Shown here: piece after piece, positions 1 through 51,025 of the stretch
Position numbering within the stretch: the first letter of the stretch is position 1
Layout of the letters: each line of letters opens with the position of its first letter
Source: Methylobacterium sp. CB376
GTDB lineage: Bacteria > Pseudomonadota > Alphaproteobacteria > Rhizobiales > Beijerinckiaceae
Assembly: GCF_029714205.1 (NCBI RefSeq)
Contig: NZ_CP121648.1
Span: forward strand, 6,726,001 to 6,790,000
DNA length: 64,000 nucleotides
Direction of reading: 5' to 3'
The notes under the pieces: model-generated
What the model saw: only the letters and a program-made list of their open reading frames with translations
Database searches by the model: none
Told to the model about the DNA's origin: nothing
Translations under genes and position numbers: made by a program

Positions 1-42
1 AAGGTGGCGTGATCCTGGGCTTTCCCGCTGGCCGGGAGGCGC

Positions 43-354
43 ATGGGAATCGTGGGCGGAATCTGGGCGCTTGCGGAGGGAGTTGCGGCGGAGTTCAAGG
101 ACCTGCTTTACTGGCAGTGCAAGGCGCCGCGCGACAACTTCGCCCCGATGATCGCCACCATGCTCCAGGTGCGCAGCTCTAAACTAGTGGATCTGGCCGC
201 CCAGCCGCGCGAGATGTACCGGACCGACATGCGCGACGGTGGATCCGCGCCTCCTGGGCAGCGCGCGGAGCGACCCCGACGCCGTGATGGCGCCCCGCGC
301 CGCCGCGGTGCCGAAGCCCGCCGCCGACCGGCAGGGCATCGCGCCGCTCCTTGA
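43..354 (+). CDS. Weak open frame, possible gene fragment
   Basis: The first 60 or so codons have coding-like composition (G/C at third positions, balanced residues). The frame then becomes Arg/Pro/Ala-rich, as non-coding high-GC DNA does. A GGGAGG sits only about 3 bases before the ATG, too close for a good ribosome binding site. I recognise no family. It may be the remains of a gene cut by the mobile-element activity seen just downstream. It could equally be a chance frame. Confidence 0.2.
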   Translation: MGIVGGIWALAEGVAAEFKDLLYWQCKAPRDNFAPMIATMLQVRSSKLVDLAAQPREMYRTDMRDGGSAPPGQRAERPRRRDGAPRRRGAEARRRPAGHRAAP

Positions 355-629
355 TCCAAGGTGCCGGAGCGCCGTCGGGAGCCGATGCTGGCGCTCCGGT
401 ACGGCAAGCGCGCCCTGCCGGGCGCATGGCGGGTCGAGACGACGCGGAGGGCCGGTCGGCTCCGCAACGCAAGGGGACCTGCTCGCGGCCGTCGCGCCCT
501 GGTTGCCGGCGCGTGCCAAGGGCCGCCCGATGGCCGGCGGCCTCCCCGGTACGGCCGAGCTGGTCTCGCTGTGATGGGACCGCGGCTTAGGACGACCGTC
601 CGCGGCCCGAGGGCGCGAGGGGTCGAGGG

Positions 630-776
630 TGGTTTGTGGGCATGAACGGCGCGATCACCGTCCACTGCTCGTCCGAGAGCGAGAACAGGTCCGCCACCGC
701 CGCCTGCATGCGGCAAGCGGCGGCCCTGAATCACAAAACCACAGACCCTGCAACACCTTGGTGCGATTCAGACCCT
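630..776 (-). mobile_element. 5' fragment of an IS5-family element
   Basis: Read on the minus strand, this stretch starts with the same terminal sequence (AGGGTCTGAATCG) and the same transposase N-terminus (ADLF-LSDEQW--IAPFMPTN) as the longer IS5 copies at 10882-11768 and 33013-33853. Homology stops right after the MPTN motif, so only about 147 bp of the left end remain. Nothing beyond it resembles the DDE domain, so it cannot encode a transposase. Confidence 0.7.
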
Positions 777-843
777 GGCGCGGCGCGCTTAGCCATCCTC
801 GAACAGGCCACAAAAGGAAAACCCTGATGCCGAAGCGCTCTGA

Positions 844-876
844 TACGGGACCCGCTTGATCAAAGCGGGTCCCGTA
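844..876. terminator. Perfect 14-bp hairpin
   Basis: Arms at 844-857 and 863-876 are perfectly complementary (left arm TACGGGACCCGCTT) around a 5-base loop. There is no T-run on either side, so it is not a textbook intrinsic terminator. Similar GGGATCC/GGGACCC-type hairpins lie at 35940-35976 and 37096-37122, which suggests a shared family of intergenic palindromes. Confidence 0.5.
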
Positions 877-879
877 GCA

Positions 880-966
880 CAAGCCTGCGCGGCGCCTGAG
901 CGACGCCGACATCCGCATGGCCGAAATCGGAGATGGCGAAGCGCTCAATCGGATGTCGTATGAGGT
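880..966 (+). repeat. Dispersed intergenic repeat family 1, copy A
   Basis: This shares a core of about 80 bp with copies at 14221-14380 (two units), 33930-34018, 36999-37084 and 57928-57972. Recognisable blocks are GCGCGGCGCCTGAGCGA, GCCGACATCCGCATGGCCGA, and a small palindrome, GATGGC-GAA-GC(C)ATC, followed by CGGATG. All copies lie outside the genes I call. Confidence 0.75.
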
Positions 967-1066
967 GCACACCGGCTTCGCCGTCCCTCACGGATGAAAC
1001 CTGAGCGTGCATGCGATCAGAGCTTTTCACGCCAGCATAGCAAGTTTCTATTGAGAGAGTGCTCCG

Positions 1067-1858
1067 CTACCGCACGGCATCGGCCCCGAGCGGCTCCATC
1101 CCGCTCGCCCGCACCGCCGCGGCGGCCTCCGGACCGGCGAGGAAGCGGATCAGCGCCCGCGCAGGCTCCGGCTCGCGGCTGCCCGCAACGACGCCTGCCG
1201 AGAACAGCGTGTAGAGCTGCACCTCCTCCGGCAACAGGCCGACGATCTGGATTCCCGGCACGGGCTTCAGCTCGCTGAGCTGCTGGAAGCCAACCTCCGC
1301 CTCGCCGCGGGCCACCACTGCGCCCACCGGCTCGGCCGGGATCATCCGCGCCTTGTCCTTGACCTGCTCGGCGATGCCGAGGCGCTTGAACAGGTCCCGC
1401 TCGATGTACACGCCGCTCGCGCTGTCCGAGTAGGCGATCGACGTTGCCGCGAGCAGGGTCCGGCGCAGGCCCTCGACGCTGCTGATGTCGGGCATCGGCG
1501 CGCCCGCGCGCACCGCGAGCGCGATGCCGGAGCGCGCGAGCGCGGTGCGGCTGTTGGCGCTCACCTTGCCCTGCCTGATGAGGTCGTCGAGGGCGTAGCC
1601 GACCACGATCACGACGTCGATCGGCTCGCCCCGCGCGAGCCGGGCCGGCACCGCCTGCGGGGTCTGGCCCATCGAGGGTCCCCACTCGGCCACGAGCCTG
1701 TGGCCCGTACGGCGCTCGAACTCGGGGGCAAGTGCCCGGTAGGCTGCCGCGAAGCCGCCGGAGCTGACGACGCGCACCTCGGCGGCCAGGGCCGCTCCTG
1801 CGAGGAGAAGCGGGAGGACCAGGCCGAGGCCGCGGAACAGGAATTTGGAACGGATCAC
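1067..1858 (-). CDS. ModA-like periplasmic substrate-binding protein
   Basis: The 263-residue protein has an N-terminal signal peptide (hydrophobic core about residues 8-24, cleavage near ALAA-EV). The body fits the molybdate-binding (ModA/type 2 periplasmic binding) fold, with VRVVSSGGF at the mature N-terminus and a [13 protein letters not shown] segment mid-protein. No ModB or ModC lies next to it. Its GTG start overlaps the TGA of the upstream symporter (GTGA), implying translational coupling. It may therefore bind an organic anion, or act as an orphan sensor-type binding protein, rather than import molybdate. Ligand is not determinable from sequence alone. Confidence 0.8.
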
Positions 1859-3288
1859 GAGTCTTCTCCATCAGGGCAGAGGTCGGGCCACCCGCAGCGC
1901 CCGGAGAACGGGGCGGTCGCGCTCGCGGCCGGCGCGCGTGCTGAGCTGCGCCGGTCGCGAGCGGTCAGCGGGAGGTCAGGCCATCGCAGCGTCCCGGGCG
2001 AGCCCCCCTTCGCGTGGCTCCGCTCCCGGTAGATGAGCAGCGTCGCGACGAGGCCGCAGGCGCCCGCGAAGGCCAGCCAGAAGGCCGGGGCGGCACGGTT
2101 CCCGGTCACCTCGATCAGCCAGGTCGAGACCAGTGGGGTGAAGCCGCCGAACAGCGCGGTGGCGAGCGAGTAGGCGAGCGAGAAGCCGGCCGTGCGCACG
2201 CTCGCCGGCACGATCTCGGTCAGCGCCACCACCATCGCGCCGTTGTAGCTCCCGTACAGGAAGGACAGCCACAGGAGCACGATCAGCATGTTGGTGAAGG
2301 AGGTGTTGGCGACGAGCCACGCCAGCGCCGGGTAGGCGGTGAGTAGCGTCAGGGCCGAGAACACCAGCAGGATGGGCTTGCGGCCGACCCGGTCCGAGAG
2401 CGCGCCCATCACCGGCAGCCAGAAGAAGTTCGACACCGCGACGCAGAAGGTGACGAGGAGGCTGTCCTCCGCCGACAGCTTCAGCACGCTCTTGCCGAAG
2501 GTCGGGGTGTAGACCGTGATCGTGTAGAACGAGACCGTGGTCATCACCACGAGCAGCATGCCGAGCAGCACGATCTGCCAGTTGCGGCCGAGCGAGGCGA
2601 AGATCTCACGGGCCGTGGGACGATGCTTGCGGTGCAGGAACTCCTCCGTCTCCTCCAGCGAGCGGCGGATGTAGAACAGGAACGGCACGATCAGGCAGCC
2701 GATGACGAAGGGGATGCGCCAGCCCCAGGAGCCCAAGGCCTCCGGCGTGAGCGCCTGGCTCAGGACGTAGCCGATCAGCGCGGAGACCATGATGGCGACC
2801 TGCTGGCTGCCCGACTGCCAGGAGACGTAGAAGCCCTTCTTGCCGGGGGTCGCCATCTCGGCGAGGTAGACCGACACGCCGCCGAGTTCGACGCCCGCCG
2901 AGAAGCCCTGCAGCAGCCGGCCGATCAGCACCAGGAACGGGGCGAGGAGCCCGATGGTCGCGTAGGAGGGCACGAAGGCGATCAGGATCGTGCCCATCGC
3001 CATGATGCCGAGGGTGACGATGAGGCCCTGCCGGCGCCCGACCTGGTCGACGTAGGCGCCGAGGAAGATGGCGCCGAGGGGCCGCATCAGGAAGCCCGCC
3101 CCGAAGGTCACGAAGGTGAGCATCAACGAGGCATACTCGTTGCCGGTCGGGAAGAACGCCTTGGAGATGTAGGTGGCGTAGAACCCGAACAGGAAGAAGT
3201 CGAACATCTCTAGAAAATTGCCGCTCGTGACGCGCAGCACGGTGGCGATCTTGGATCGTGAGCGATCCTCGGGGGCGAAATGCGCCAT
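1855..3288 (-). CDS. MFS metabolite:H+ symporter, citrate/tricarballylate type
   Basis: A 477-residue, 12-helix major facilitator of the MHS (citrate-proton symporter) group. Visible features are the N-terminal [16 protein letters not shown] helix, the loop motif between helices 2 and 3 ([12 protein letters not shown]) and its repeat after helix 8 ([11 protein letters not shown]). The start is supported by GGGAGGATATC-ATG. The protein runs about 45 residues past the usual family end into an Arg/Ser/Pro-rich tail and stops in a GTGA overlap with the ModA-like gene. Its position downstream of ATP-citrate lyase-like genes fits uptake of citrate or a related carboxylate (inference). Confidence 0.85.
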
Positions 3289-3480
3289 GATATCCTCCCA
3301 GGGGCTTTGTGATGGTGGTGCCAGGGTGGCCCGCCGCCGGAGCGGACGGGCTGCGGGGTCGGGTTCCGCCGGACGGCGGCCCGCGCCGGAGGCCGCGATG
3401 CGGCCTCCGTCCGATGCGCGGGGAGCGAGGCGTCGGTCCGGGCTGCGGACGGCTCGCCGTCGTGTCAGGAGCGGGACCCG

Positions 3481-3508
3481 CGCGAAGGCCGTCGCGCGGG
3501 CCTTCGCG
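3481..3508 (-). terminator. Hairpin after the citrate-lyase-like operon
   Basis: Ten-base perfect arms (CGCGAAGGCC at 3481-3490, complement at 3499-3508) enclose an 8-base loop. It sits 3 bases beyond the stop of the minus-strand lyase-like gene and about 190 bp before the symporter start. There is no clear U-tract. It probably ends or attenuates transcription between the two units. Confidence 0.5.
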
Positions 3509-3511
3509 TGA

Positions 3512-6217
3512 TCAGGCCACGAAGCGGCACTGCGAGGCGGGCGTGCGCGTGTCCATGTTGCGGCCGCGGTTCGTGTGATCGTCCACCTCCGCCGCGCAGC
3601 CGAGCATGCGGGCGAACAGGAAGATCGTGAACGCCGCCGTCTCGAGTGCGGCGCCAGAGAAGTCGCCGTCCTGGTAGGGCCGCCACAGCATCTTCAGGAG
3701 CAGCGCCGCGATCACCGCGTCGATGTTCACGCAGTAGACGGTGCGCGACACGCCCGCCTCGTGAAGGGCCCGCACCAGGGCGCGGTAGTAGGCGTGGAAG
3801 GCGTTGGTGTCGCCGCGCGCCGCGAGCAGGTCGTGGATCCAGACCTCGCGCGGGTCGTGGTTCACGGCCTTGTCCTTGAAGACCGGGTGGTTGACGCCCG
3901 GGATCTTCTGGATGTCGAGGCTGCCCGCGCTCTTCCGGTCAGTCTTGTAGCGGGCGTACTCCGCGGCGGTGCGGTCGGCGAGCGCCTCGAGGTCGACGTC
4001 GTGGTCCGGGTCGCCCGGGTCGGCGAGGCCCGCGTCGCGGAACTGCTCGATCAGGAAGGCGATGCCCTCGTAGCCGTTGCCGCCGTGGGCGTAGCCCGCA
4101 TGGCTCAGGAACCCGATCACCGCCTTGTTGAGTTGCACCCGCTCCGGGCTCTCCGGCCCGTCGGCCGAGACCGCGCCCTTGCAGCCTTGCGCCGAGATCG
4201 TGCCCGGACCGTTCGACAGGAGGAGCCCGATCAGGGTCTCGAAGACGAACACGTCGCCGGCTGCGCCCTCCCGGCCGAGGAGCGCGAGGCAGCCGATCTC
4301 GCCGAGGGTACGGCGCCCGAGGAGGTCGACGTTCGGCACGCCGCAGAAGCTGTCCGCTTCGTGCCCCTCCGCCGGGACCGCCGCGCCCAGCAGCACGCCG
4401 AAGAGCTGCAGCCACCAGGGCAGGCTCTCGGCCGTGAGGCGCGAGATGCGCTTGCGCATCAGCGGCCCCCAGGCGAGCGTGGTGGCGACCGTGGCCAGCA
4501 CCGCGTCCCGCGTCGGGTGGCCGCCGAGGCCGCGCAGGTAGCGCAGGAACACCGAGCGGGCGCCGCGGGCCTGGAGGGCGTCGAGGAGCGCCTGCGCCCG
4601 CGGATCGGGCTTCGGGCCGACGAGGAGAGCGGCGAGATCCGGATCCGCCGCCACGCGACCGAGGTCGAAACTCTCGTCGAGGGCGCTCGGCAGCCCCGCC
4701 TCCACGAAGCGGTCGGTGAGGAGCCGGCAGATCCGCCGCGCCGTCTCGGCGCGGCGCGGGCCGACGAGGCTCGCGGCGGCGGCGAGCACCACGTTCGGCG
4801 CGTTGCCGGCCTCGCGGGCGGCCTCAGCGGCCGCGAGTTCCGGCCGCCCGTGCAGGTTCACCTCGGCGGCCACCGCGGCGTTGATCAGGGCACGGTCGTT
4901 GTCGCCCGCGGCCTCGCGCAGGAGGGCGAGGGCGAGGTTCGCCTCCATCGGCAGGCGCGCCGCCTCCAGCATCGAGACGCCGTGCAGGCTGGTGACCTGC
5001 GTCTTCGGGTCCATCTGCGAGGCGCCCGAGACGTCCTTCATGGTCTGGCGCGGCAGCACGATGCCGATCTGGCGGTTGAGCCGCGCGATCTGCTCGCCGT
5101 AGGGCATCGCCGCCGCGACCACCGGCAGGTCGAGCCCGGCCGGCAGGGTCAGGCCGGCATTCGAGCCGAACCAGGGCTTGAGGGCGAGGCTGCTCTCGGG
5201 CGCGAAGTCGGGCCGCGCCCCGTTCTCGCGCATCACCGCGGTGAGCGCCGCCGGGATGTGGGCGATGTTCGTGACCACCGCGCCCTTGGCCGAGACGACC
5301 GGGTTGTCGGGCGTGAACACCTCGTCCACCCCGAACTTCTCCATGAACCAGCGCTCCTTGGCGGCGGCATCGTCGTCGCCGCCCGCCATGGCGCCCGCGT
5401 GACCCACCGCCCGGGAGAGCCGGCTCTTCCAGCGCCCGACCACGCAGGCGACGACCGGCTTGGTGAAGTGCGCGTCGAGTTCGTAGTAGCCGCCCGGCTC
5501 CACGTAGAGCACCGCCGCCTTGCTGCGCGCGTCGTTGGCGAGCGCGAAGGCGAATTCCGGCGCCGCGTACTGGATGTAGACGTCCTTGCCGCTGGAGATG
5601 AGCGTGGTGGTGCCCCAGCCGCTCATGCGCAGGTAGGTGGCGATCGTCGTGGTGAAGTTGCCGGAATTCGAGAAGATCGCCACCGAGCCGGCCTTGAGCG
5701 CCTCGCCCGGGCTGTCGCCGCCGAGCGCGCCGCCGATGCGGACCTGATGGTAGGCGTCGGCGACCCCGAGGCTGTTGCCGCCGAAGATGTCGACGCCGTT
5801 CTGCTGGCCGAGGGCCCGGATCTCGCGGCTGTCGTGGACCGAGAGCTTCTCGGTGACGATGAAGATCTTGCGCAGGTCCGGGTTGACCCGGATCAGCTCG
5901 GCGACGCCGTCGCGGGCGCCGGACGGCGGCAGGTAGACGACGCCGCAATTGAAGCGGTGCCCGGCCTCCAGCCCCTCGCGGACGTTGTTGTAGACTGGGA
6001 TCTCGCCGAGCGGGGTCTCGAGAACCTGCCCGCGGCGGCCGGGCGAGGTGCCGAACACCACGTTGCCGCCCGAATAGGCGTGGCCGACGGGCGTCACGTC
6101 GCTCGACTCACCCCCGAGGATGTTGAGCACGCAGACCCGGTCCTGGCGCGTGGCGACCTAATCGAGCGAAGAGATGCCGACGTGGTACTTGAAGCTGCCG
6201 ATGCCGTGCTTGTGCAT
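3512..6217 (-). pseudogene. ATP-citrate lyase-like large subunit with in-frame TAG
   Basis: About 900 residues covering a succinyl-CoA-synthetase-like CoA-binding and ligase region (phosphohistidine motif GHAGAMAGG) followed by a citrate-synthase-like domain (GYAHGGNGYEG, PGVNHPVFKDKAVNHDP). This is the ATP-citrate lyase or citryl-CoA synthetase plus lyase arrangement: ATP, CoA and citrate to acetyl-CoA and oxaloacetate. The best start is the ATG at 6215-6217 behind GGGAGGA, 16 bp after the partner gene. Codon 20 of that frame (6158-6160) is TAG, inside clearly conserved N-terminal sequence (GIGSFKYHVGISSLD then VATRQDRVCVLNILGG). A rescue start is the GTG at 6130, which would drop 29 residues. 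Pseudogene, suppressor readthrough, or base-call error are the options. Confidence 0.8.
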
Positions 6218-6232
6218 GTCGTCCTCCCTCGC

Positions 6233-7245
6233 TTACTCGGCCGCGTGACGCAGCGGCTCGCCGAGACCGATGGCGCGCGCCACCGCCTCGCGCCCGCCCT
6301 GGCGCATCCACTGGTCGGCCTTGCGGGCGTAGGCGACGACCTCGCTCATGTCGGAATCGAACCCGAACAGCCGGTAGGGCAGGCCCAGCGCCTCGGCCGT
6401 GTCGCGCAATGCCCCCATCCCGCGCACCAGGTTCGGGCCGCCGCGGCCGGCGACGATGTACAGCGGCGTCGGCCCGTGCCGGCCGACATGCTCGCGCAGC
6501 GCGTCCGCCATCGCCCGGAAAGTCTCGAAGATGTCGGTGTTGTTCGACTTGCCCGGCAGGCCGAGGCGCTGCCAGCGCGGGTCGTCGCGGTCGAAGCCGC
6601 ACTTGAAGTCGCAGGCGACGGGGGTGAGGCGGCCGCTGCGGTCGGGGCGCATGCGGATCGGGTTCAACTCGACCGTGGTCATGCCGAAGCCGTGGTAGAG
6701 TTCCCAGAGCTTCGGCAGCTGCTGCACCAGCGGCGAGATCAGGGCCTTCGGGGCGTTCAGTTCCGAGAGGGCGTTCGCCACCACGAAGGCCTTGAGGCCG
6801 GTGAGCGGGTCGAAGGGAACCTGCGCCACCTCGCTCTTGTCGAGTTCCTCGATGTCGACGCCGCCGCGGTGGGTCAGCGTCATGGTCGGGGCGCGGTAGC
6901 GCGTGCTGTCGGAGATCGAGAAGTAGACCTCGTGCTCGGCCGGCACCGCGCCCTCGAAGGTGACGCCGTTGGCCTTGGCCACCGCGTGGCCGTGGCGGTG
7001 CTCCGAGAAGTAGAGCCGCTCCTTCTCGCGCAGCGCCGTCCTCAGGTCCGAGGCGCGGCCGACGAGCCCGCCTTGCCCTTCTTGCCGACGCCGCCCTTGA
7101 AGACCGGCTTGATGAAGATCGAACCGTGGCGGTCGATCAGCCCCTTGATCTCTTCCTCGCTCGCGTCCGGGCCGAGCACCTCGGACGTGGGAAAGCCGGC
7201 GAACTGCAGGAGCTTCGCGCCGTGCAAGATGCCCGTGACTTGCAT
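6233..7245 (-). pseudogene. ATP-citrate lyase-like ATP-grasp subunit, frameshifted
   Basis: The ATP-grasp and citrate-binding partner of the neighbouring lyase-like gene. It starts at the ATG at 7245 behind AGGAGGG, with LHGAKLLQFAGFPTSEV and the ATP-grasp lysine segment FIKPVFKGGVGKKGKAG. Just after GKAG, near 7063-7067, the frame shifts. Adding one G to the minus-strand GGG restores LVGRASDLRTAL and continues into the C-terminal frame ending at 6233, with VELNPIRM and the citrate-binding-domain pattern GGPNLVRGMGALRDTA. The reconstructed protein would be about 337 residues. With the TAG in the large subunit, both halves of this enzyme look damaged. Confidence 0.8.
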
Positions 7246-7345
7246 CCGTTCCCTCCTGAATGTGTTTGGAGGGATCTTCGAGATGGAACCTGTCACAAAT
7301 CTGTCGCGGCGCGAATTTCTGCGAGGTGGCCGGGAAAGCTTCGTC

Positions 7346-8410
7346 CTATCGTCCCTCGATGACCCGCCGCCACTGCTTCAGCGTCCGGCTGCGCTTGATC
7401 TGGTCGAGGGCGGTGAGGAGTTCGGGCCCGACCACGATCGGCTGGGGGGCGGCCGCGACGGGGTCGTCGGGCTGGCGCGCGTCGGCGCGCGCGGGCGTCA
7501 CCGAGCGGGCCGCGAGCCGCGCCTGCCCCTCCCATGAGAGCATGTAGTCGAGGAAGAGCCGGGCTGCCGCCTTGTGCTGGGCCGCCTTGGGAATGAAGGC
7601 GATGCGCGAGGTGATCAGCGTGTAGTCGGCGGGAAGCACGACGCCGAGCCTCGGGTCCTGCTTGGCCCGCTCCAGGGCGTAGGCGCCGAAGACATCGAAG
7701 GCCAGCAGCGCCTCGCCGGCGACGACGCGGTCGAGCATGTGCGTCGTGGTGGTGTAGAGCTTCGCCCCGACCTGCCCGAGGGCGCGCACGAGGTCCCAGG
7801 TCCGCGGCGTCACCGCGAGGTTCTGCGTGAGGAACAGGAAGCCGACGCCGCTGCGCTCCGGGTCGTAGGTGGCGACCTTGCCGTGCCACGCCTCCGGGTC
7901 CTGCGTCAGGCTGCGGACGAGGTCGGCGTGGCTGCGCGGCACACGCTCGTCGGGAAGCAGGCTGCGGTTGTAGGCGATCGCGACCGGCTCGGCGGTGACG
8001 CCGTAGGCCTCGTAGCGCCACACTGCCCAGGCAGGCAGCCCCTCCGCCTCCCGGGAGACGTACCGCTCGGCAAAGCCGTCATTCACGAGCTTGACCTGGA
8101 GGTCCATGGCCGAGCTCCAGAGGATGTCGGCCGTACCGCCTCCCGCCCCGGCCTCGGCGAGAAACTCCTCGTAGAGCTTCGACGAGTTCAGCTTGGCGTA
8201 GGAGACCGAGACGCCCGGGTAGCTCTGCCGGAACCCCTCCAGCAGCGCGGAGGCCTCCGCCTCGTCGGTCGTCGCGCGGATGACCAATGCGCCCTCCCGC
8301 ACGGCCTCCGCGACGTCCTGGCGCCGCACGTCGACGGGCGCGTCGACCTGGGCCCGGGCGGAGGCGAGCAGGACGCCGAAGGCGATCAATCCGGCCGCGA
8401 GGATGCGCAC
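7346..8410 (-). CDS. Family-1 extracellular solute-binding protein (PgtC/FutA-like)
   Basis: A 354-residue secreted protein with a signal peptide (LLASARAQ). The body is a type 2 periplasmic binding protein of the iron/phosphoglycerate-type family: VIRATTDEAEASALLEGF, DILWSSAMDLQ, AIAYNRSLLP, and a C-terminal FIPKAAQHKAAARLFLDYMLS helix. No permease or ATPase is adjacent. It is divergent from a response regulator and sensor kinase, the arrangement of TctC/PgtC-type proteins that present a ligand to their sensor. The likely role is periplasmic sensing or capture of a carboxylate or phosphorylated carboxylate (inference). A fragment of a paralogue lies at 21340-21622. Confidence 0.85.
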   Translation of the reverse strand: MRILAAGLIAFGVLLASARAQVDAPVDVRRQDVAEAVREGALVIRATTDEAEASALLEGFRQSYPGVSVSYAKLNSSKLYEEFLAEAGAGGGTADILWSSAMDLQVKLVNDGFAERYVSREAEGLPAWAVWRYEAYGVTAEPVAIAYNRSLLPDERVPRSHADLVRSLTQDPEAWHGKVATYDPERSGVGFLFLTQNLAVTPRTWDLVRALGQVGAKLYTTTTHMLDRVVAGEALLAFDVFGAYALERAKQDPRLGVVLPADYTLITSRIAFIPKAAQHKAAARLFLDYMLSWEGQARLAARSVTPARADARQPDDPVAAAPQPIVVGPELLTALDQIKRSRTLKQWRRVIEGR

Positions 8411-8546
8411 GTTCCCTCCCCACCCACCGCTTTTCGGTTGCCTGCGGTGCTCACAGTCGCGAGGATCGAGGCTACAGGCTCGCGCCGCGATGCCAAGCCG
8501 CCGCAGCGCGGATGCGCGGAGGCTGGTACCGAGGGAGGGCGGGCGG

Positions 8547-9212
8547 ATGCGGGTGCTCGTCGTGGAGGACGACGCGGCTCTGGCGCGGGGGCTCGTGGCG
8601 TCGCTCCGGCTCGCCGGACTCGCGGCAGACCACGAAGCGGACGGCGAGGACGCGGCGCGGCTCGCCCTCTCGGAGCCCTACAGCCTGATCGTGCTCGACA
8701 TCGGCCTTCCGGGCCTCTCCGGCTTCGAGGTGCTGCGGCGCATTCGAGCAGCAGGGAGTACCGTGCCGGTGCTGATCCTGACCGCGCGCGACGCGGTGGC
8801 GGACCGGGTGCGGGGGCTCGATCTCGGGGCGGACGACTACCTGCTCAAGCCTTTCGCCCCCGCCGAGTTCGAGGCGCGGGTGCGCGCCCAGATCCGGCGC
8901 GGTCAGGGCCAGCCCAACCCCGTCCTGCGCTGCGGGACGCTCGCCCTCGACCGCTCGACCGGGGCGGTGACGCTCGACGGCGAACCCCTTGCGCTCCGGC
9001 GCCGGGAACGCGCGGTGCTCACCGTGCTGATGGCCAAGGCCGGGCAGGTGGTGCCGAAGGAGCGGCTGAACAACGAGGTGTTCGGGTTCGACGACGAGGT
9101 GGCGCCGAACGCCCTCGAACTCTACATCGCGCGCCTGCGCAAGAAGCTGCAGCCGAAGGGACCGGAGATCCGCACGATCCGCGGTCTCGGCTATCTCCTC
9201 GACGCCGGATGA
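8547..9212 (+). CDS. OmpR-family response regulator (TctD-like)
   Basis: A 221-residue regulator. The receiver domain (about 1-115) has the acidic pair VVEDDA, phospho-acceptor Asp in LIVLDIGLPG, switch Thr in LILTARD and Lys in LLKPF. A winged-helix DNA-binding domain (about 125-218) ends in RTIRGLGYLL. The start is the ATG after GAGGGAGGGCGG. Its stop overlaps the sensor kinase start (ATGA), so the two are translationally coupled. It is divergent from the solute-binding protein gene and probably controls it. Confidence 0.95.
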   Translation: MRVLVVEDDAALARGLVASLRLAGLAADHEADGEDAARLALSEPYSLIVLDIGLPGLSGFEVLRRIRAAGSTVPVLILTARDAVADRVRGLDLGADDYLLKPFAPAEFEARVRAQIRRGQGQPNPVLRCGTLALDRSTGAVTLDGEPLALRRRERAVLTVLMAKAGQVVPKERLNNEVFGFDDEVAPNALELYIARLRKKLQPKGPEIRTIRGLGYLLDAG

Positions 9213-10648
9213 GCCGGCGCCCGCCCTCCCTGCGGCGCGGGCTGATGCTGCGGATGCTCCTGCCCACCGCAGCCCTCGCCCTCGTGCTCGGCCTCGGCGG
9301 CGCCCTCGTCATCCGGGATGTCGTCGAGACGACGCACGACCGTCTCCTCGACGGCTCCGTCCTGGCCATCGCCGAGCGCCTCGCGTTGGACGAGGACAAC
9401 GAGGTGACGGTGGACCTGCCGCGGGTGGCGCTCGGCATGCTGGAGAGCCAAGCGCATGACCGCATCTACTACAGTGTCAGCTACCAGGACCAGCTCGTCA
9501 CGGGCTACCGCGACCTGCCTCGCCCGGCCTCGGAGATGGAGCCCGGCCCGACCCGGCACTGGGACGCGGTGATGCGCGGGGCGCCCGTGCGCGTCGCCGC
9601 GCAGGCGCGGCGGGTCTACGGCAAGCCGGGCTTGGTCCTGGTTCAGGTGGCCGAGACGCGCGATGCGCGACGCACCCTGGAGGCGCGGCTGTTCGGCGGC
9701 CTGTTCGTGCTCGAAGCCGTCCTCCTGGCTCTGGTCGGGGTGCTGACGTGGCACGGGATCAGCCGCGGCCTGGCGCCCCTGGATCATCTCAGCGCCGAGA
9801 TCGACCGGCGGGCGGCGCCCGGCGCGATCAGCCTGCAGCCCCTCGACGCCTCGCGCGTGCCGGCGGAGGCCGCCGCCCCGGTGCTGGCCTTCAACACCCT
9901 GCTCGCCCGGCTGGAGCAGGTCATGGTGGCCGTGCGGCGCTTCACGGCCGACGCCTCGCATCAGATGCGAACGCCGCTCGCAGTGCTGCGCATGCATGTC
10001 GATCTCGCGCGCCGCCACGGCGTCGGCGCGAGCCCCGAAGGCCGCGCCGCGCTCGACGACATCGAGGGCGCGGCTTTGCGCCTGGAGCACCTGCTCGCCC
10101 AACTCCTCGCCCTTGCCCGCGCCGACGAGGACCCAGGCGCGCTCGTGATGACGAATCTGGATCTCGCCGAGGTCGCCGCGACGGTTCTTGCGGACCAGGT
10201 CCCGCGCGCTCTCGCCGCCGGCGTCGAGATCGAATACGAACGGCCGAGCGAAGCCGTCATGGTTCCGGGCCATGCGACCCTGGTCGGCGAGATCCTCGCC
10301 AACATCGTCGACAACGCGATCCGCTACGCCGGGGCCGGCGCCCGGGTGGTCGTGCGCGTGGCGAACGAACCGGGCGGAGCCATTGCCGAGGTTGAGGACG
10401 ACGGGCCGGGAATTGCGCCGCAGCACCGGGAGAAGGTTTTCTCGCGCTTCTATCGGGTCGCCCGGAGTGGCGGCCCGGAGGGCAGCGGCCTCGGCCTCGC
10501 CGTGGTTCGGGCCCTCGCCGACCGGATCGGTGCCGCCGTGACCCTCGGTGACGCTCGCCGAGGCGGATCGGGGCTGCTGGTCAGGATCGTCTTCCCGCCG
10601 GTCCCCATGAAATCCACCGAGACTGGCTCGAAGCAGCCGGACCCTTGA
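9209..10648 (+). CDS. Sensor histidine kinase (TctE-like)
   Basis: A 479-residue membrane kinase. It has a TM helix near residues 15-33, a periplasmic TctE-type N-terminal domain (about 34-160), a second TM helix near 170-190, a HAMP-like linker, and the H-box FTADASHQMRTPLAVLR. The catalytic ATPase domain shows NIVDNAIRYA (N box), EVEDDGPGI (G1), KVFSRFYR (F box) and GSGLGLAVV (G2). Together with the upstream regulator and the divergent binding protein it forms a compact sensing unit. Confidence 0.95.
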   Translation: MSRRPPSLRRGLMLRMLLPTAALALVLGLGGALVIRDVVETTHDRLLDGSVLAIAERLALDEDNEVTVDLPRVALGMLESQAHDRIYYSVSYQDQLVTGYRDLPRPASEMEPGPTRHWDAVMRGAPVRVAAQARRVYGKPGLVLVQVAETRDARRTLEARLFGGLFVLEAVLLALVGVLTWHGISRGLAPLDHLSAEIDRRAAPGAISLQPLDASRVPAEAAAPVLAFNTLLARLEQVMVAVRRFTADASHQMRTPLAVLRMHVDLARRHGVGASPEGRAALDDIEGAALRLEHLLAQLLALARADEDPGALVMTNLDLAEVAATVLADQVPRALAAGVEIEYERPSEAVMVPGHATLVGEILANIVDNAIRYAGAGARVVVRVANEPGGAIAEVEDDGPGIAPQHREKVFSRFYRVARSGGPEGSGLGLAVVRALADRIGAAVTLGDARRGGSGLLVRIVFPPVPMKSTETGSKQPDP

Positions 10649-10881
10649 CGCCGTCCCGGGCCGGCGTGGTTGACATGTCGTTCGCCCCGCTCCCACGACC
10701 GTGGGAAATCGAGGGCCCGCTTCGCGGGAGCTCGAAAGGTCCCTGCCGGATTGCAAGCGGCCAGTGCGGCGGCACCGATCGAAGGTCTGCTCCCGGCGCG
10801 TTGCCGACCCACGACCGATCGACGGCAGACCGTGCGTTCGCATCGTCCGCGGCCTGCTCGACGGGCCGCAGCGTCAAGCCT
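10649..10881. other. Intergenic stretch with hairpin and short repeat
   Basis: No gene is visible. A small CCCGC-TTC-GCGGG hairpin lies about 70 bp after the kinase stop and may help end transcription. A 33-bp motif at 10757-10789 (GCGGCCAGTGCGGCGGCA and on to GAAGGTCTG) recurs with a few changes at about 31437-31468. Confidence 0.4.
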
Positions 10882-11768
10882 AGGATGTGAACCGAACCAA
10901 GGTGTTGCAGGGCCTATAGTTTTGTGATTCAGGGCCGTCGCTTGCCGCATGCAGGCGGCGATGGCGGACCTGTTCTGGCTCTCGGACGAGCAGTGGGCGG
11001 TGATCGCACCGTCCATGCCCACAAACCAGCCCGGCCCCGAGCGCGAGGACGATCGCCGGATCATCGCCGGCATCCTGCACGTGCTCACTTCCGGATGCGC
11101 TGGCGCGATGGCCCGGCCGCGTATGGACACCCCACCACGGTCTACAACCGCTTCACCAGGTGGTCGCGGCGCGGCTTCTGGACGGCGATGCTGGCGGCCC
11201 TGGCCAAAGCCGGGTGGTCGGGCGAGGCGGCCGCCCTCCATGCGGCCTGCGTCAAAGCCCAGCGCTCGGCTCACGGGGGCAAAGGGGAGCGACAGCGCAG
11301 GCCATCGGCCCTTCGCGGGGTGGTCAGACGACCAAGATCCACGCGCTCGTCGACGTGCTCGGCCGCCCCGGTGTCCTCCTGCTGACGCCGGGCGACGCCA
11401 GCGACGGGCGGACCGCCCCGGCGGTGCTGGTCGAGGCCCCCGGCCGGAGCCGCCGCCTGATCGCCGACGACAAGGGCTGCGACGCCGATCGGCTGCGGGC
11501 TGATCTGCGGGAGAAGAGCATCACCCCAGTCATCCCCGGCACCCGCCCGGCACCCGCCCGGCACCCGCCCGGCACCCGCGCCCGCACGCGCGCGCTTCGC
11601 CACGACAAGCGCCGCTCCCGTGACCGCTGGCGCATCGAGGCCGCCTTCTGCCGTCTCAAGGACTTCCGCCGGATCGCCACCCGCGACGACGAGCTCGCCC
11701 GCAACTTCGCTTCCGCGCTCGCCCTCGCGGCTGTCGTCGCGTTCTGGTGCCGATTGAGTCCTGACCCT
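10882..11768 (+). mobile_element. IS5-family insertion sequence, degenerate
   Basis: An 887-bp element with recognisable but mutated ends: left AGGATGTGAACCG, right complement AGGGTCAGGACTCAATCGG. It carries one transposase reading region broken by frameshifts. The two other copies in the window share the left-end leader CCAAGGTGTTGCAGGG (630-776) or the right end GACTCAATCGGCACCAGAAC (33013-33853). An 11-bp unit (ACCCGCCCGGC) repeated about three times near 11540-11575 looks like replication slippage inside the transposase region. Confidence 0.75.
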
Positions 11769-11810
11769 GGCACAGCTTGCATGAGACGCGGGCCTGACCG
11801 GCAGCCCTGA
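10949..11810 (+). pseudogene. IS5-family transposase, two frameshifts
   Basis: The reading begins MADLFWLSDEQW in frame 2. It shifts to frame 1 near 11097 (one C missing relative to the third IS copy) giving HPTTVYNRFTRWSRRGF, then to frame 3 near 11285 giving TTKIHALVDVLGRPG, LIADDKGCDAD and RWRIEAAFCRLKDFRRIATR. Those three blocks hold the D, D and E of the DDE catalytic domain. The last frame runs past the element end, so the natural stop is lost too. Not expected to be active. Confidence 0.75.
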
Positions 11811-11965
11811 TCACGCTCGACCGGGCAGGGAGAAACCCGGGCCCGCGCCTCACCACTTGATCACGAGCCCGCCCATGCCAGCCGCGCTGCCGATCATCTA
11901 CGCCTTCCTGCAGGACGGGCCGTCCCGCGCCTGGGCACTGCGCGACGTGGCGGGATAGACCGCGA

Positions 11966-12208
11966 TCACGCCAAGCTGTCGAGATCGACCCGGGCTTGCT
12001 TTCGGGAAGCCAGGGCACCTCTAAACCATTCTGGCATCGGCAGAGTCTTGCGCTCGGCAGCCCATATTTCCTTAATGGCTTCCTGAACACGATTAAGGTC
12101 TTTTGAGAAAAACTCGAGAGACTGAGGCCCGGGAATTGCCTCTCGCGCAGTAAAAATCCCATTCTCTTGCCGAATGTAGTGTGCGCAGTAGATTGAATCT
12201 CGCTTCAT
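11966..12208 (-). CDS. Small hypothetical protein
   Basis: An 80-residue soluble protein, charged and aromatic-rich (IYCAHYIRQENGIFTARE), with no signal peptide or TM segment. A weak AAGGAA precedes the ATG. Base composition is lower in G+C than the neighbours, consistent with acquired DNA beside the IS5 copy. I do not recognise the family. Balanced amino-acid composition makes it more likely real than a shadow frame. Confidence 0.5.
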   Translation of the reverse strand: MKRDSIYCAHYIRQENGIFTAREAIPGPQSLEFFSKDLNRVQEAIKEIWAAERKTLPMPEWFRGALASRKQARVDLDSLA

Positions 12209-12250
12209 TCCTTAATTCTCCCGCCACATTGGCAACGGCGCTCAACGAGA

Positions 12251-12276
12251 AAGGGTCTGGACGTGTCCAGGCCCTT
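12251..12276 (-). terminator. Rho-independent terminator of the OxlT gene
   Basis: A 12-base stem (12251-12262 with 12265-12276, one G-T pair) and 2-base loop follow the OxlT stop by about 40 bp. On the minus strand the hairpin is followed by CTTTCTCGTT. This is the best intrinsic terminator in the first 15 kb. Confidence 0.65.
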
Positions 12277-12314
12277 CCCGTTGCTTGCTCGTGCCTACGA
12301 TTGCCCGGAGGCTG

Positions 12315-13628
12315 TCAGGCGACCGCGACCTTGGTGCCGGCCGGCAACTCCGCATCGGTCTGCGCATTGGTGACGACGCGCTTGCGCCAAGGCTTCAGCA
12401 CCGCGATGGCGAGGATCGAAGCCAGGATGTTGGCTCCGGCCGCCGCGAGAAATACGCCGTCCCAATTGCCCGTGCTCTGCTGCAGGTAGTTGGCGAACGG
12501 CACGAGCAGCGCCGCAGTCCCCTTTGCCGTGTAGAGCAGCCCGGCGTTCGTCGCCGCGAACTTGGAGCCGAACGTGTCGGTGCAGGTCGAGGGGAATAGC
12601 GAGTAGATTTCACCCCAGGCAAAGAACACGAAGCCCGACAGGAGGACGAACCACAGCGGATCATGTCCCCACAGGTACAGCATGTAGATGCCAAACCCCT
12701 CCATGGCGAAGGCGATGAACATCGTGTTCTCGCGACCGATCTTGTCCGAGACCCAGCCGAAGAAGGGACGGGTCAGACCGTTGAGCACGCGGTCGATCGT
12801 CGCCGCAAAGGTGATGGCCACCATCGTAACACCGAGGATCGTCACCGGCACCTTGTCGACGTGGATATCGGCCGCGATTGGCTTCAGGTTCGCGGTGATC
12901 ATGAGGCCGCCTGCGCCGACGATGACGAACATGAAGTACATCAGCCAGAAAATCGGCTGACGAACCACTTCACTGGGCGTGTAGTTGCGCCGAGATTGGA
13001 GATTGGCGGTGCTCGTCACCTCCGGAACTTGGCCCTTGCGCGGAGACGCCAGGAAGAAGGCGAGGGCGGCAACGATCACGCCCTGACCAATGCCGAAGTT
13101 GAGGAAGGCAGCTTGGAAGCCCTTGTCGGCAATCATCCACTGAATAGGCGCCACCGTGAGCGCCGAGCCGGCGCCGAAGCCTGCTGCGGTGATACCGGCG
13201 GCCAGACCACGCTTGTCCGGGAACCACTTCAGGGCATTGCCCACGCAGGTTCCGTAGACGGCGCCAGCTCCCAGACCCGCGATGACCTGACCAACGTAGA
13301 ACATGTTGAGGCCTGTCGCGTAAGCGTTGATCACCCAGCCGACGCCGCAGAGCACGCCACCGAACAGGACCACGATCTTCGGGCCGTACTTGTCGACGAA
13401 CCAGCCCTCGACGGGCACGAGCCAGGTCTCGAACAGGACAAAAAGGGTGAAAGCCCATTGGATCGCGGCGCGATCGAAGCCGAATGTTTTCTGGATTTCG
13501 GGTACGAAGAAAGTCCAGCCGTACTGCAGGTTGGCGATCATGACCATGCAGACGACGCCAAGCACCAGCTGCATCCAGCGATAGCTGTCAGATACTCTGT
13601 TGGTAGTTATGGGTGTAGAGGTCGGCAT
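12315..13628 (-). CDS. oxlT: Oxalate/formate antiporter, MFS
   Basis: A 437-residue, 12-helix major facilitator of the OFA family: YRWMQLVLGVVCMVMIANLQYGWT at the first helix, KYGPKIVVLFGG, GTCVGNALKWFPDKRGLAAGI, and the C-terminal half with FFGWVSDKIGR and LLYTAKGTAALLVP, whose Lys corresponds to the buried substrate-binding Lys of Oxalobacter OxlT. It exchanges oxalate for formate, which would feed oxalyl-CoA metabolism. The ATG at 13628 follows GAGGAA; an upstream in-frame ATG at 13763 adds a Pro/Cys-rich non-family tail. No oxalyl-CoA decarboxylase or formyl-CoA transferase gene lies in the window. Confidence 0.9.
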   Translation of the reverse strand: MPTSTPITTNRVSDSYRWMQLVLGVVCMVMIANLQYGWTFFVPEIQKTFGFDRAAIQWAFTLFVLFETWLVPVEGWFVDKYGPKIVVLFGGVLCGVGWVINAYATGLNMFYVGQVIAGLGAGAVYGTCVGNALKWFPDKRGLAAGITAAGFGAGSALTVAPIQWMIADKGFQAAFLNFGIGQGVIVAALAFFLASPRKGQVPEVTSTANLQSRRNYTPSEVVRQPIFWLMYFMFVIVGAGGLMITANLKPIAADIHVDKVPVTILGVTMVAITFAATIDRVLNGLTRPFFGWVSDKIGRENTMFIAFAMEGFGIYMLYLWGHDPLWFVLLSGFVFFAWGEIYSLFPSTCTDTFGSKFAATNAGLLYTAKGTAALLVPFANYLQQSTGNWDGVFLAAAGANILASILAIAVLKPWRKRVVTNAQTDAELPAGTKVAVA

Positions 13629-21339: not shown

Positions 21340-21622
21340 TTAATCTGTCTCACGGGCGCTGACGGCGGACAATGCGCGACCTGATGAGCGGTAGTCGATT
21401 GGCAGCTCGACTCCGAGTGCCGGACCCTGCTTGGCCCGCTCCAGCGCGCAAGCACCGAACAAGCCGAAAGGGACGAGCGCCTCCCCCGCGGAGACCCGGT
21501 CCGGCATAGTGTGGGTCGCGATGTAGAGCTTCCCACCAACCTGCCCTGAGGCATAGACGATGTCCCAGGTTCGGGCTGCCTCCTGGAGGCTCTGCGCGAG
21601 GGAGAGGAAACCTCGCTGGGCT
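21340..21622 (-). pseudogene. Fragment of a second family-1 solute-binding protein
   Basis: The minus strand reads without stops: RGFLSLAQSLQEAARTWDIV, ASGQVGGKLYIATHTMPDRV, SAGEALVPFGLFGACALERAKQGPALGVELPIDY, then a stop at 21340. It aligns with the middle of the intact protein at 7346-8410 (FLTQNLAVTPRTWDLV, LGQVGAKLYTTTTHMLDRV, FGAYALERAKQDPRLGVVLPADY). N- and C-terminal parts are gone, the C-terminal side replaced by IS3 debris. A paralogue destroyed by insertion or deletion. Confidence 0.75.
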
Positions 21623-21662
21623 CCAGAGGTCGTCCGGGGACGGACTCACCGGAGCGCGCCTT

Positions 21663-30178: not shown

Positions 30179-31009
30179 TCAGACCCCCGGCTTGGGCTTG
30201 TTGGTCGGCCAGTTGTGGGTCTCGTCGGTGGCGTCGCGGCACCAGCGGTAGAAGGCGTCGTAGAGGAGCATGCCGGCATTGAGCTGCTCCAGGTCGTCGG
30301 CGTACATCCGCGACAGCCCGAGCGAGGCGGCGAGCAGGCCCGCGGCCTCGGGCGCGAGGTCGAGCCGGGCGGTGTCGGCGCCACGGACGATCGCAGCCAG
30401 TTGGCGCAGGGGCGCGGTGCCGAGGTTCAGCTCCTCGACCAAGACATCGAAGGTGCACAGCTCGCCGCGGTGGCTCCAGACCACCTCCGGGTCGTCGATG
30501 TCGAACGCGGCGCCGCCGAAGCGCGCGGCCACCGCCTCAACCTCAGGGGACGGCACGAACAGGAACACGGCAGAGGGATCGACGAAGCGGCGGATCAGCC
30601 ACGGGCAGGCGATGCGGTCGATCTTCGGCCGCGCGCGGGTGACCCAGACCGTCCGGCCCCGGGCGTCGCGGGTTGGCAGCTTGGCGTCCGGCACCGTCGG
30701 CAGCTCGGCGGCGCGCCACGCCTCGGTGCCGCCCTCCAGGCTTTCGGCCGGCACGCCTTCCTGGCGCAGCCAGGCGGCCACGCCGTGACTGAGTTTCTGG
30801 CCGCGCTGGCAGATTACGATGGCGGAGCGGCCAGCGAGGGCGCCGGCCCACGAGGCTACCTCGGCCCAGGGGCGGCGCACGGCGCTCGGGATTAAGCACG
30901 GGTCCGCGGCGAAATCTTCCTCGGTGCGCACATCGAGGAGCACCGGGCAGCCGGGGGTGCCGATCAGGCGAACGAGCTTATCGACAGGGATGGCGTTGGG
31001 CGTAGGCAT
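30179..31009 (-). CDS. chrB: Rhodanese-ChrB fusion, chromate resistance protein
   Basis: 276 residues. The N-terminal rhodanese domain (about 1-110) has VLLDVRTEEDFAADPCLIPSA and active-site Cys in VICQRGQKLSHG. The C-terminal ChrB domain (about 120-276) has RPKIDRIACPWLIRRFVDP, VVWSHRGELCTFDVL and a final YDAFYRWCRDA helix. ChrB proteins regulate chr operons in response to chromate. The rhodanese in place of the usual N-terminal region suggests a sulfur-transfer or oxyanion-sensing step. First gene of the chr operon; ATG after AAGGACG. Confidence 0.9.
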   Translation of the reverse strand: MPTPNAIPVDKLVRLIGTPGCPVLLDVRTEEDFAADPCLIPSAVRRPWAEVASWAGALAGRSAIVICQRGQKLSHGVAAWLRQEGVPAESLEGGTEAWRAAELPTVPDAKLPTRDARGRTVWVTRARPKIDRIACPWLIRRFVDPSAVFLFVPSPEVEAVAARFGGAAFDIDDPEVVWSHRGELCTFDVLVEELNLGTAPLRQLAAIVRGADTARLDLAPEAAGLLAASLGLSRMYADDLEQLNAGMLLYDAFYRWCRDATDETHNWPTNKPKPGV

Positions 31010-31152
31010 GGCGCGTCCTTGCAAGAGATGCAGGCTGGACGCGATTCTTCAGCCGGAGCCTCGTCGGGAGATCGCTTCCCGAAGGCGGAACAGAAGACCT
31101 CCGCAGCGCGCGTGTCAAGCGCCCGACCAACGGTTCGGTTTGCGGTATCCCC

Positions 31153-47688: not shown

Positions 47689-48853
47689 GGATCCCCGCCT
47701 TGGCCGACGCGCTCAGCCGCCGCGCCCTCCTGCGCCTCCTCTCCGGCGGCGCCGCGCTCGCCCTTCCGCGCCCGGCTGGGGCGGCGGGCGACGGCATCCG
47801 CGATCAGGGCATCGGCGGCACCGGCACCCGGCCGGGCGACGAGGAGGGGGACCGCGGCATCGGCGGCACCGGCGTCATCGGCACGATCCGGGCCTTCGGC
47901 AGCATCGTGGTCAACGATCTGCGCATCGCCTACGCGCCGGACGTGCCGGTCGCCATCGACGGGCGGCCCGCGACCGCGTCCGACCTCCGGCTCGACCAGG
48001 TGGTGCAGGTGGTGGCGCGCGCGGGCGAGGCGGGAGTCTCCGCGGCGCGGATCGACGTGGTCCACGAGGTGGTGGGCCCGGTGAGCGCGGTCGGGCGGGG
48101 CCGGCTCACCGTGCTCGGCCAGAGCGTGGTCACGGCCGGGGCGGCGGCGGCGCGCTCCTGGCGCCTCGGCGAGCGCGTGGCGGTGAGCGGGCTGCGGCGG
48201 CCGGACGGGCGCATCGCGGCGAGCCGCGTCGATCCGGCCGGGGACCTGCCGAGCCGCGTCGCCGGGCCGGTGCGCCGGGACCCCGGCGGCACGCCGCGGA
48301 TCGGCGCCCTGCCACTGCCGGGGCTGGCGCCCGGCCTCGTCGGGGGCCGCGCCGTGGTGGAGGGCCGCTCGGCCGAGGCGCCGTTCGGGCCGGAGGTCGG
48401 GCGAGTCTCGCTCGAGGCCTACGTGGCGCGGGAGGGCGGGCGCCTGCGCCTCGGCTCGGGGCTCGCGGTCGCCGGGAGCGCGCCGGCGCTGCCGCGCGGC
48501 GGCGGGCTCGCGGTGATCGAGGCGGCGGCGGGGCCTGCGGGGCGCCTGACCGCGCGGGATTTGCGCCTGCGCCCGGGATCGTCCGAGGGCGGGGCGCGGC
48601 CGGGCGGGGCCGGTCCGACCGATCGGGGCGGCTTCGGCGGGCCGGGCCGGAGCGGCCGGCCGCGCCGGGGCCGGGCGGGTTCGGCCTCGACCGCCGGATG
48701 CCGGGGGCGCCCGCGGGAATCGGCCGCGGCGGGCTCTCGCTCGATCGGCGGCTGCCGGGAGATCCGGGCGGCTTGGGCGGGCCGGGCGGGTTCGGGGCGC
48801 CCGGCGGAGCCGGACCGGGCGGCGCGCCGGGCGGCTTCGGCGGCCGGCGCTGA
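47685..48853 (+). CDS. DUF5666-type exported protein, probable 3' frameshift
   Basis: A twin-Arg-containing signal region (SRRALLRLLSGGAALALPRPAGA), then duplicated GIGGTG motifs and repeated beta modules (AFGSIVVNDLRIAYAPDVPVAIDGRP, DQVVQVVAR; GRLTVLGQSVVTAG, GERVAVSGLRRPDGRIAASRV) typical of DUF5666. Near 48662-48665 the original frame turns Arg-rich and runs to 48944. Adding one G to the GGGG run gives a Gly-rich tail (GPGGFGLDRRMPG; GGLGGPGGFGAPGG) ending at 48853, which fits better. Secreted, function unknown. Confidence 0.65.
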
Positions 48854-48916
48854 GGCGGTCCCGTCACCGCTCGGCGCGGAGACGGGGAGGCTTCCGGGCC
48901 GGTTCGGCCGGGGAGA

Positions 48917-50014
48917 TCACGCCGCCGCCCGGCGCTCCGGATAGAGCCGCAGCAGGCCCTCGGCGCTGGCCTCGGTGACGCCGCGCTCGGTGATCAGGCC
49001 GGTGACGAGGCGCGCCGGCGTGACGTCGAAGGCCGGGTTCGCCACCGGGCTCCCGGGCGACACCACCTGCACCGTCGCGAAGCCCCCGTCCGCGGTGCGG
49101 CCGGTGAGGTGGGTCACCTCGCGGGCGTCCCGCTCCTCGATCGGGATCTCGGCCACGCCGTCCCGCAGCGTCCAGTCGATCGTCGAGACCGGCAGGGCGG
49201 CGTAGAAGGGCACCCGGTTGTCGTGGGCCGCCAGAGCCTTGAGGTAGGTGCCGATCTTGTTGCAGACGTCGCCCGTCGCGGTGGTGCGGTCGGAGCCGAC
49301 GATGCAGAGATCGACCTGCCCGTGCTGCATCAGGTGCCCGCCGGCATTGTCGGCGATCACCGTGTGGGGCACCCCGTGCGCGTGCAGCTCGAAGGCGGTC
49401 AGCGCCGCCCCCTGATTGCGGGGCCGCGTCTCGTCCACCAGGACGTGGACCGGCACCCCGGCATCGTGGGCCGCGTAGATCGGCGCGAGCGCCGTGCCCC
49501 AATCGACGGTGGCGAGCCAGCCCGCGTTGCAATGGGTGAGCACGGTGACCCGCCCGCCCCTGGCGCGCGCCGCCTCGGCGATCAGCCGCGAGCCGTGCTG
49601 GCCGATCGCCCGGCAATTCGCCACGTCCTCCTCGGCGATCCGCCCGGCCTCCGCGAAGGCCTGGGCCGCGCGGATGTCCGGCGGCAGGGGACGCAGGGTC
49701 GCGCCGAGGCGGTCCAGCGCCCAGCGCAGGTTGACGGCGGTGGGCCGCGTCGCCGCGAGCATCGCGCCGAACCGCGCCAGCCCCGCATCGGAGGGGTCCT
49801 CGCGCAGCCCGAGGGCGAGCCCGTAGGCGGCGGTGACGCCGATCAGCGGCGCCCCGCGCACCACCATGGTGCGGATGGCCTCCGCCGCCTCCTCGGCCCG
49901 GGCGAGGCGGCGGATCTCGAAGGCGAAGGGGAGCCGGGTCTGGTCGATCACCAGGACGGCGTCGCCGCCCGGCTCGGGAAAGATGGTGCGATAGGGGCGG
50001 CCGTCGATCTTCAT
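48917..50014 (-). CDS. mtnA: S-methyl-5-thioribose-1-phosphate isomerase
   Basis: 365 residues. [33 protein letters not shown], catalytic Cys in [29 protein letters not shown], catalytic Asp in [19 protein letters not shown]. It converts methylthioribose-1-phosphate to methylthioribulose-1-phosphate in methionine salvage. No other mtn genes adjoin. Confidence 0.95.
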
Positions 50015-50089
50015 GCGCCCCCCTTAGCACGGACCGTCGCGTGAGGGCAGCGATCCGCGCCCCGGCGCCGCCCCCGCGGATCCCTGCCC

Positions 50090-50302
50090 TCAGCGGGCCT
50101 GCGCGACGCGCTGCCCGGGCTCGCGGGCCGGAGCCACCGGCTGCGGCGTGGTGGTGAGTTCGGCCGCCGGCCGCTCGATCCGGGCCTGCCGGACCATCAT
50201 CCGCGAGAGCGGCGGAAACACCGTGACGGCGCCGTCCTGCGCGCAGGCCGGCACGGTGGAGACGGCGACGAGGCAGGCGCAGGCGAGGAGGGAGAACCGC
50301 AT
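50090..50302 (-). CDS. Small secreted hypothetical protein
   Basis: 70 residues: signal peptide (SLLACACLVAVSTVPACAQ), then a short polar Arg/Gln/Pro segment. SD GGAG, 7 bases before the ATG. The 100 bp upstream (50310-50410) are unusually AT-rich for the window and probably hold its promoter. Unknown function. Confidence 0.6.
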   Translation of the reverse strand: MRFSLLACACLVAVSTVPACAQDGAVTVFPPLSRMMVRQARIERPAAELTTTPQPVAPAREPGQRVAQAR

Positions 50303-50508
50303 GGCTGGCTCCAAAAGTATTGTTGCTGTTACCCCAATAGAAACACGCCTTGTCGCAATGCACAAGTGATGAGTGCGCTGCACAATAAAACAGAGTGCGA
50401 AAACGCACACCTGCAATATGGTGCAAGGAATTATGTTTCCTGACCATGACCCTGGGTCAGAGATGCCGCGCCCGGCAGCACCCGACCCGCCCGGCCCGCC
50501 GCGGGCGC

Positions 50509-51021: not shown

Positions 51022-51025
51022 CGGG

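Follow-up and report, generated by a model that had tools for sequence, protein, structure and literature searches.

A broken copy of an ATP-citrate-lyase-like operon in Methylobacterium sp. CB376 and the enzyme family behind it

In Methylobacterium sp. CB376, both genes of an ATP-citrate-lyase-like (ACL-like) operon are interrupted, and the locus is very probably a pseudogenised copy of a tricarboxylate-catabolism operon that has decayed stepwise within its lineage. Set against intact orthologues in five genomes, it carries a one-base frame break and a 282-bp deletion in the small (ATP-grasp) subunit and a nonsense codon in the large one. The broken copy as such is ordinary gene loss. The intact enzyme, to judge from its domains and predicted folds, is best read as an ATP-dependent lyase acting on a tricarboxylate, probably citrate.

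The operon and its lesions

The locus was analysed within a window of 64,000 nucleotides (contig NZ_CP121648.1, positions 6,726,001 to 6,790,000), in which the relevant features are:

620–776, no strand: left arm of an inverted repeat, 157 nt, 89% matched
1067–1858, minus: periplasmic binding protein, weakly ModA-like (46 bits against a cut-off of 62.5), frame open
1855–3288, minus: MHS symporter of the TcuC family (757.6 bits against a cut-off of 445), frame open
3512–6217, minus: large subunit, 901 codons, with a CoA-ligase alpha part and a citrate-synthase-like part; start 6217 behind GGGAGGA
6158–6160, minus: TAG stop at codon 20 of the large subunit, a single substitution found in the window alone among the copies aligned
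6233–7102, minus: remainder of the small subunit, in a shifted frame and with an internal deletion
6553–6554, minus: junction of the 282-bp deletion (94 codons), found in the window alone among the copies aligned
7042–7245, minus: first piece of the small subunit, start 7245, 67 aa and then a frameshift stop
about 7067–7069, minus: frame break of the small subunit, one base in a G run, common to the syntenic WSM2598 copy L029
7346–8410, minus: extracellular solute-binding protein, directly upstream of the small subunit
8544–9212, plus: response regulator, best model TctD at 233.5 bits, below the cut-off of 337
9242–10588, plus: sensor histidine kinase, partner of the response regulator (range of the tblastn match)
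10882–11038, no strand: right arm of the inverted repeat, adjoining ORFs that resemble pieces of an IS transposase (putative, by appearance)

On the minus strand the genes thus follow one another in the order solute-binding protein, small subunit, large subunit, MHS symporter and binding protein, and the inverted repeat encloses the whole block of transport, lyase and regulator genes. At the right end of this block the sister strain WSM2598 has about 960 additional bases. The symporter frame extends (1855–2008) for about 50 codons beyond the last residue aligned to a Paraburkholderia homologue and there overlaps the next gene. Elsewhere in the window, the DNA at 21372–21624 shares 72% identity with a portion of the gene for the solute-binding protein (7346–8410) and probably belongs to a paralogue, an Rfam chrB-a RNA lies on the minus strand at 31007–31086 (73.4 bits, cut-off 43.9), and the G+C content, taken in 2-kb steps, is 74–81% across 48001–58000 as against 69–73% across 1–12000.

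For the lesions, the window was aligned with eight other copies, two from Microvirga plasmids and six from within the genus, the six being spread over five further genomes, one of which contributes two. Two lesions had been described in the first-pass annotation of this DNA and are both borne out: the large subunit has its TAG at codon 20, and the small subunit shifts frame where a run of four bases in the intact copy counts three in the window. A comparison with close strains had been proposed there; the TAG occurs in none of the eight other copies, and the frame break in one of them, the syntenic copy of WSM2598. The same annotation took both genes to be otherwise full length with their motifs intact, and in this it was mistaken. 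The small subunit lacks a further 282 bp, a multiple of three, with a 3-bp microhomology (GGC) at the two ends of the missing stretch. In the numbering of L028, an intact copy of 431 codons, the deletion removes residues 232–325, including a run that is nearly invariant across 11 homologues and about half of the Pfam citrate-binding domain (residues 242–401), of which the window matches profile positions 101–174 of 177 only. With these 94 codons missing, mostly from the citrate-binding domain, restoring the frame alone would still leave the small subunit incomplete. As it stands, the window copy lacks two complete subunits, the small one being spread over two frames with 94 codons missing and the large one stopped at codon 20. 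An ACL-like operon next to an MHS carboxylate symporter has indeed been lost, as first proposed.

Copies in related strains and the course of decay

Six of 111 genomes of the genus carry the large subunit (E 1e-100 or better); in five of the six it is free of stops, and in the same five the small subunit is one unbroken match. The CB376 genome, 99.96% complete according to the tool used, contains a single ACL-like pair, the broken one; a search of this genome for a further copy found none, the remaining matches to the large subunit having 27–33% identity. On the chromosome of M. nodulans (G030) the block is present in the same order with both subunits unbroken, so that the operon was probably complete in the ancestor of the clade.

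Methylobacterium sp. WSM2598 (G050), which belongs to the same species as the window strain, has two copies. One of them, L029, is the syntenic counterpart of the window (98.2% identity over window positions 1–6553 and 99.7% over 6551–10886); it has the frame break of the small subunit, is free of both the TAG and the deletion, and carries a one-base insertion of its own that shifts the frame of the large subunit. In the other, L028, which lies elsewhere in the WSM2598 genome, both genes are open. The flanks of L028 map in the CB376 genome to two places 3.2 Mb apart, and 593 bases of its left flank match the regulator region of the window at 85%. Per 300-bp step, L028 and L029 are 96–100% identical over about 5 kb, a span that takes in the operon and the larger part of the symporter gene, and 61–88% identical outside; this near-identity, limited to the operon region, points to a recent conversion or duplication of the copies. 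The WSM2598 assembly is a draft of 5 scaffolds of 83 contigs (PMC4334988), so some cross-assembly between its two near-identical copies is possible.

In the intact operon, uptake of citrate or a related tricarboxylate would be the task of the MHS symporter and the binding proteins, probably under the control of a TctD-like two-component system. The small subunit and the N-terminal part of the large subunit would activate the acid with ATP and CoA via the conserved phosphohistidine, and the citrate-synthase-like part would cleave the acyl-CoA to acetyl-CoA and oxaloacetate. Decay would have begun with the one-base frame break in the small subunit, before the window strain and WSM2598 separated; the 282-bp deletion and the TAG would then have been gained in the window lineage and a different frameshift, in the large subunit, in L029. 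WSM2598 would thus keep the function, if any, through its second, intact copy, whereas the window strain has none. A very recent loss had been one of three readings named in the first-pass annotation. The loss stands and may be recent: the changes specific to the window (with copies L030–L033 as outgroups, and confounded by exchange between copies) comprise 15 synonymous, 5 non-synonymous and 1 stop, and their mostly synonymous nature suggests recency, subject to the same confounding by conversion. If the frame break is ancestral, such a pattern fits a long neutral decay poorly, which exchange between copies may explain.

It is very improbable that the genes are intact and only appear broken through a sequencing error, as had been considered at first, or an assembly error. 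The frame break does fall in a short G run, the TAG amounts to one base, and the 872-aa protein entry (P0010) that fits the window frame from GTG 6130 probably stems from the same strain and is hence not independent. However, a frame break at the same base is found in the syntenic copy of WSM2598, which was sequenced separately and whose other copy is without it, so this shared lesion is hard to put down to a sequencing error, and base-calling errors do not usually take the form of a clean 282-bp deletion with 3-bp microhomology. The TAG taken alone could still be an error, without consequence for the outcome. Phase-variable or programmed switching, in which slippage or recoding would restore expression in part of the population, had been put forward as well, and we find it scarcely credible: a slip in a G run did produce the shared frame break, but this run is short, at only three to four bases, the deletion and the TAG are lesions in addition to it, intact homologues do without recoding, and positions 1–13000 contain no direct repeats of 30 nt or more. 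Amber suppression of the TAG is also rejected as far as the tRNA genes found in the assembly go; a suppressor may lie among those missing from it or left unmatched. In the regions of all 48 tRNA matches of the CB376 genome, ARAGORN found no tRNA with a CTA anticodon, in a tRNA set that is incomplete, since tRNA-Ile (GAT) is absent, as is tRNA-Ala (TGC), from the tRNA genes found in the assembly. A tRNA-Leu with the anticodon "tag" (L163) was discarded as a suppressor, as it reads CUA and not UAG codons, and a weak RF00005 match at 2808693–2808753 (29.9 bits) is not called a tRNA by ARAGORN. The CB376 assembly may also lack its rRNA operons.

The large subunit could also have survived alone, with translation restarting at GTG 6130 (codon 30) and the 872-aa product functioning without the small subunit, for example as a CoA-acyl lyase. 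This we consider unlikely. In its favour, no stop interrupts the 872-aa frame, the GTG is preceded at 10 nt by an AGGA, so that a truncated product may be made, the window-specific changes in the large subunit are 9 synonymous, 4 non-synonymous and 1 stop, and the citrate-synthase-like part retains the aligned His, His and Asp. Yet the GTG lies inside DRVCVLNIL, a stretch identical in 11 of 11 homologues that forms, in the model, the first strand of the CoA-binding fold, so that the restart would cost 29 residues and part of this strand; it would leave no partner subunit; and the syntenic WSM2598 copy has a large-subunit frameshift of its own. Stepwise pseudogenisation of both subunits is accordingly the reading retained here.

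Architecture and gene context of the enzyme family

In the intact copies L028 and L034 the small subunit scores above cut-off for PF08442 and PF16114, that is, for an ATP-grasp and a citrate-binding domain, and the large subunit does so for PF13607 in six of six cases. Within the GHAGA motif of the latter, H273 is invariant in 47 of 47 homologues (alignment A3), and by motif we take it to be the equivalent of the ACLY phosphohistidine. The role of that residue in ACLY is treated in PMC10115795. The C-terminal part of the large subunit (511 residues) has a predicted fold that matches citrate synthases and the citryl-CoA lyase of Hydrogenobacter, 6hxp, while the sequence evidence is weak. A profile alignment to two citrate synthases of the CB376 genome places HGGNGYE, NHPVF and NIDA on citrate-synthase motifs, but with E 0.0013 and a probability of 18%, and only when both synthases are aligned together; singly, they give no significant match. 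The His, His and Asp thus aligned are invariant in 30 of 30 homologues. A search with the profile of the C-terminal part found no PDB sequence match, even at E 10. A replacement of the catalytic histidine in the lyase part (SNGPG motif) was considered and then rejected on the strength of the same weak profile alignment, and the middle of the large subunit was also considered as a duplicate of its C-terminus, for which hhalign found only the overlap left between the segments.

By sequence, the best solved relative is the two-subunit citryl-CoA synthetase of Hydrogenobacter (6hxq), whose chain A (6hxq_A) matches the N-terminal part of the large subunit (E 7e-42) and whose chain B (6hxq_B) matches the small subunit (E 8.8e-31). 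The lyase 6hxp is a Foldseek match to the C-terminal part (E 2.8e-5, TM 0.69 by target length), and is not among the 50 matches listed in one fold comparison. In contrast to the 6hxq/6hxp pair, the ligase alpha and lyase parts here form one chain of 900 aa, with 511 residues in the C-terminal part as opposed to 256 in 6hxp. The likeness to AclA/AclB (Chlorobium 6hxj) and human ACLY lies in an ATP-grasp and citrate-binding subunit, a CoA-ligase alpha part with a phosphohistidine motif and a citrate-synthase-related C-terminal module. Sequence matches to ACL are, however, restricted to the ligase part of the large subunit, and the 6hxj_B chain has 617 aa compared with about 900 here. Citrate synthase 2c6x and 2-methylcitrate synthase 3o8j share 15–17% identity with the C-terminal part, which is about 150 residues longer (511 versus 358–363) and fused to a CoA ligase; the Foldseek superpositions on citrate synthases are loose, with an rmsd of 8–11 for most rows.

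ACL of the textbook kind is unusual outside reductive-TCA organisms. The first-pass remark to this effect fits that enzyme and not the present family, for which the genome collection contains 358 confirmed relatives; the best 80 of them are all from Proteobacteria and, by their genera, presumably mostly soil or plant-associated heterotrophs. Among 7999 scored candidates, the large-subunit profile matched 2971 proteins, of which the best 120 are all 872–907 aa long; the names among the matches listed are "CoA-binding protein", "succinyl-CoA synthetase alpha subunit", "hypothetical protein" and slight variants of these. A literature search over titles and the beginnings of abstracts, with subscription journals mostly outside its scope, found, among the papers listed, none treating the family or its biochemistry. 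The family is thus widespread, and its architecture appears to be unstudied.

Gene context was surveyed around the best 80 of the 358 relatives, a biased sample that includes repeated species; 47 of these loci are in alignment A3 and 27 in alignment A5. The home-made ORF caller took frames on the wrong strand in some loci (e.g., c18), so all counts are lower bounds. Within these 80, the small-subunit gene was seen in at least 65 loci, an MHS gene in at least 29, TctA in at least 12, and any of MHS, TctA or TctC in at least 41. The order large subunit, MHS, binding protein occurs in at least 16 of the 80, WSM2598 itself among them, and tcuA together with tcuB lies within 8 kb in at least four. 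Soil Proteobacteria repeatedly show the arrangement of small subunit, large subunit, MHS symporter and binding protein, in many cases accompanied by tricarboxylate transporters and in some by tcuAB. WSM2598 (88%) and M. nodulans have a TcuA orthologue, and a search for a close one in the CB376 genome found none (best match 37%). The neighbouring transporters, tcuAB and the pattern of TcuA orthologues together point to tricarboxylate catabolism. With regard to the tricarballylate utilisation system tcuABC, the MHS gene of the window scores as TcuC; in Salmonella, tcuABC is not known to come with an ACL-like pair. On the M. nodulans plasmid pMNOD01 (L008, 8001–8258), a small-subunit remnant of about 260 bp lies downstream of tcuAB and ends abruptly at the gene for a tyrosine recombinase. 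Since the small subunit has a citrate-binding domain, citrate is the most likely substrate, with tricarballylate-derived or methylated acids as alternatives. Several findings count against the explanation preferred here: the response regulator scores under the TctD cut-off, the catalytic motifs align only weakly, and among the best 80 of 358 relatives the same ORF caller showed neither MHS nor TctA/TctC in 39 loci, and tcuAB was not seen within the stretch covered in 76.

A pointer to a probable lyase family

Compared with what had been described before, the locus now has a third lesion, a shared lesion that speaks against error, and an intact second copy in a sister strain. The broken copy also serves as a pointer to an apparently unstudied enzyme architecture in a widespread family with generic annotations. 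Tentatively, the intact family could represent an unrecognised class of ATP-dependent tricarboxylate lyases in aerobic, heterotrophic, soil or plant-associated Proteobacteria, in which a CoA ligase is fused to a complete citrate-synthase fold that has its catalytic triad and is run in reverse. Plant citrate, citrate derived from tricarballylate or a methylcitrate-like acid would then be converted to acetyl-CoA (or propionyl-CoA) and an oxo-acid. If this is true, CB376 and WSM2598 would make up a natural pair of knock-out and wild type, and the two strains offer a clean test of the role of the enzyme in the use of citrate or tricarballylate.
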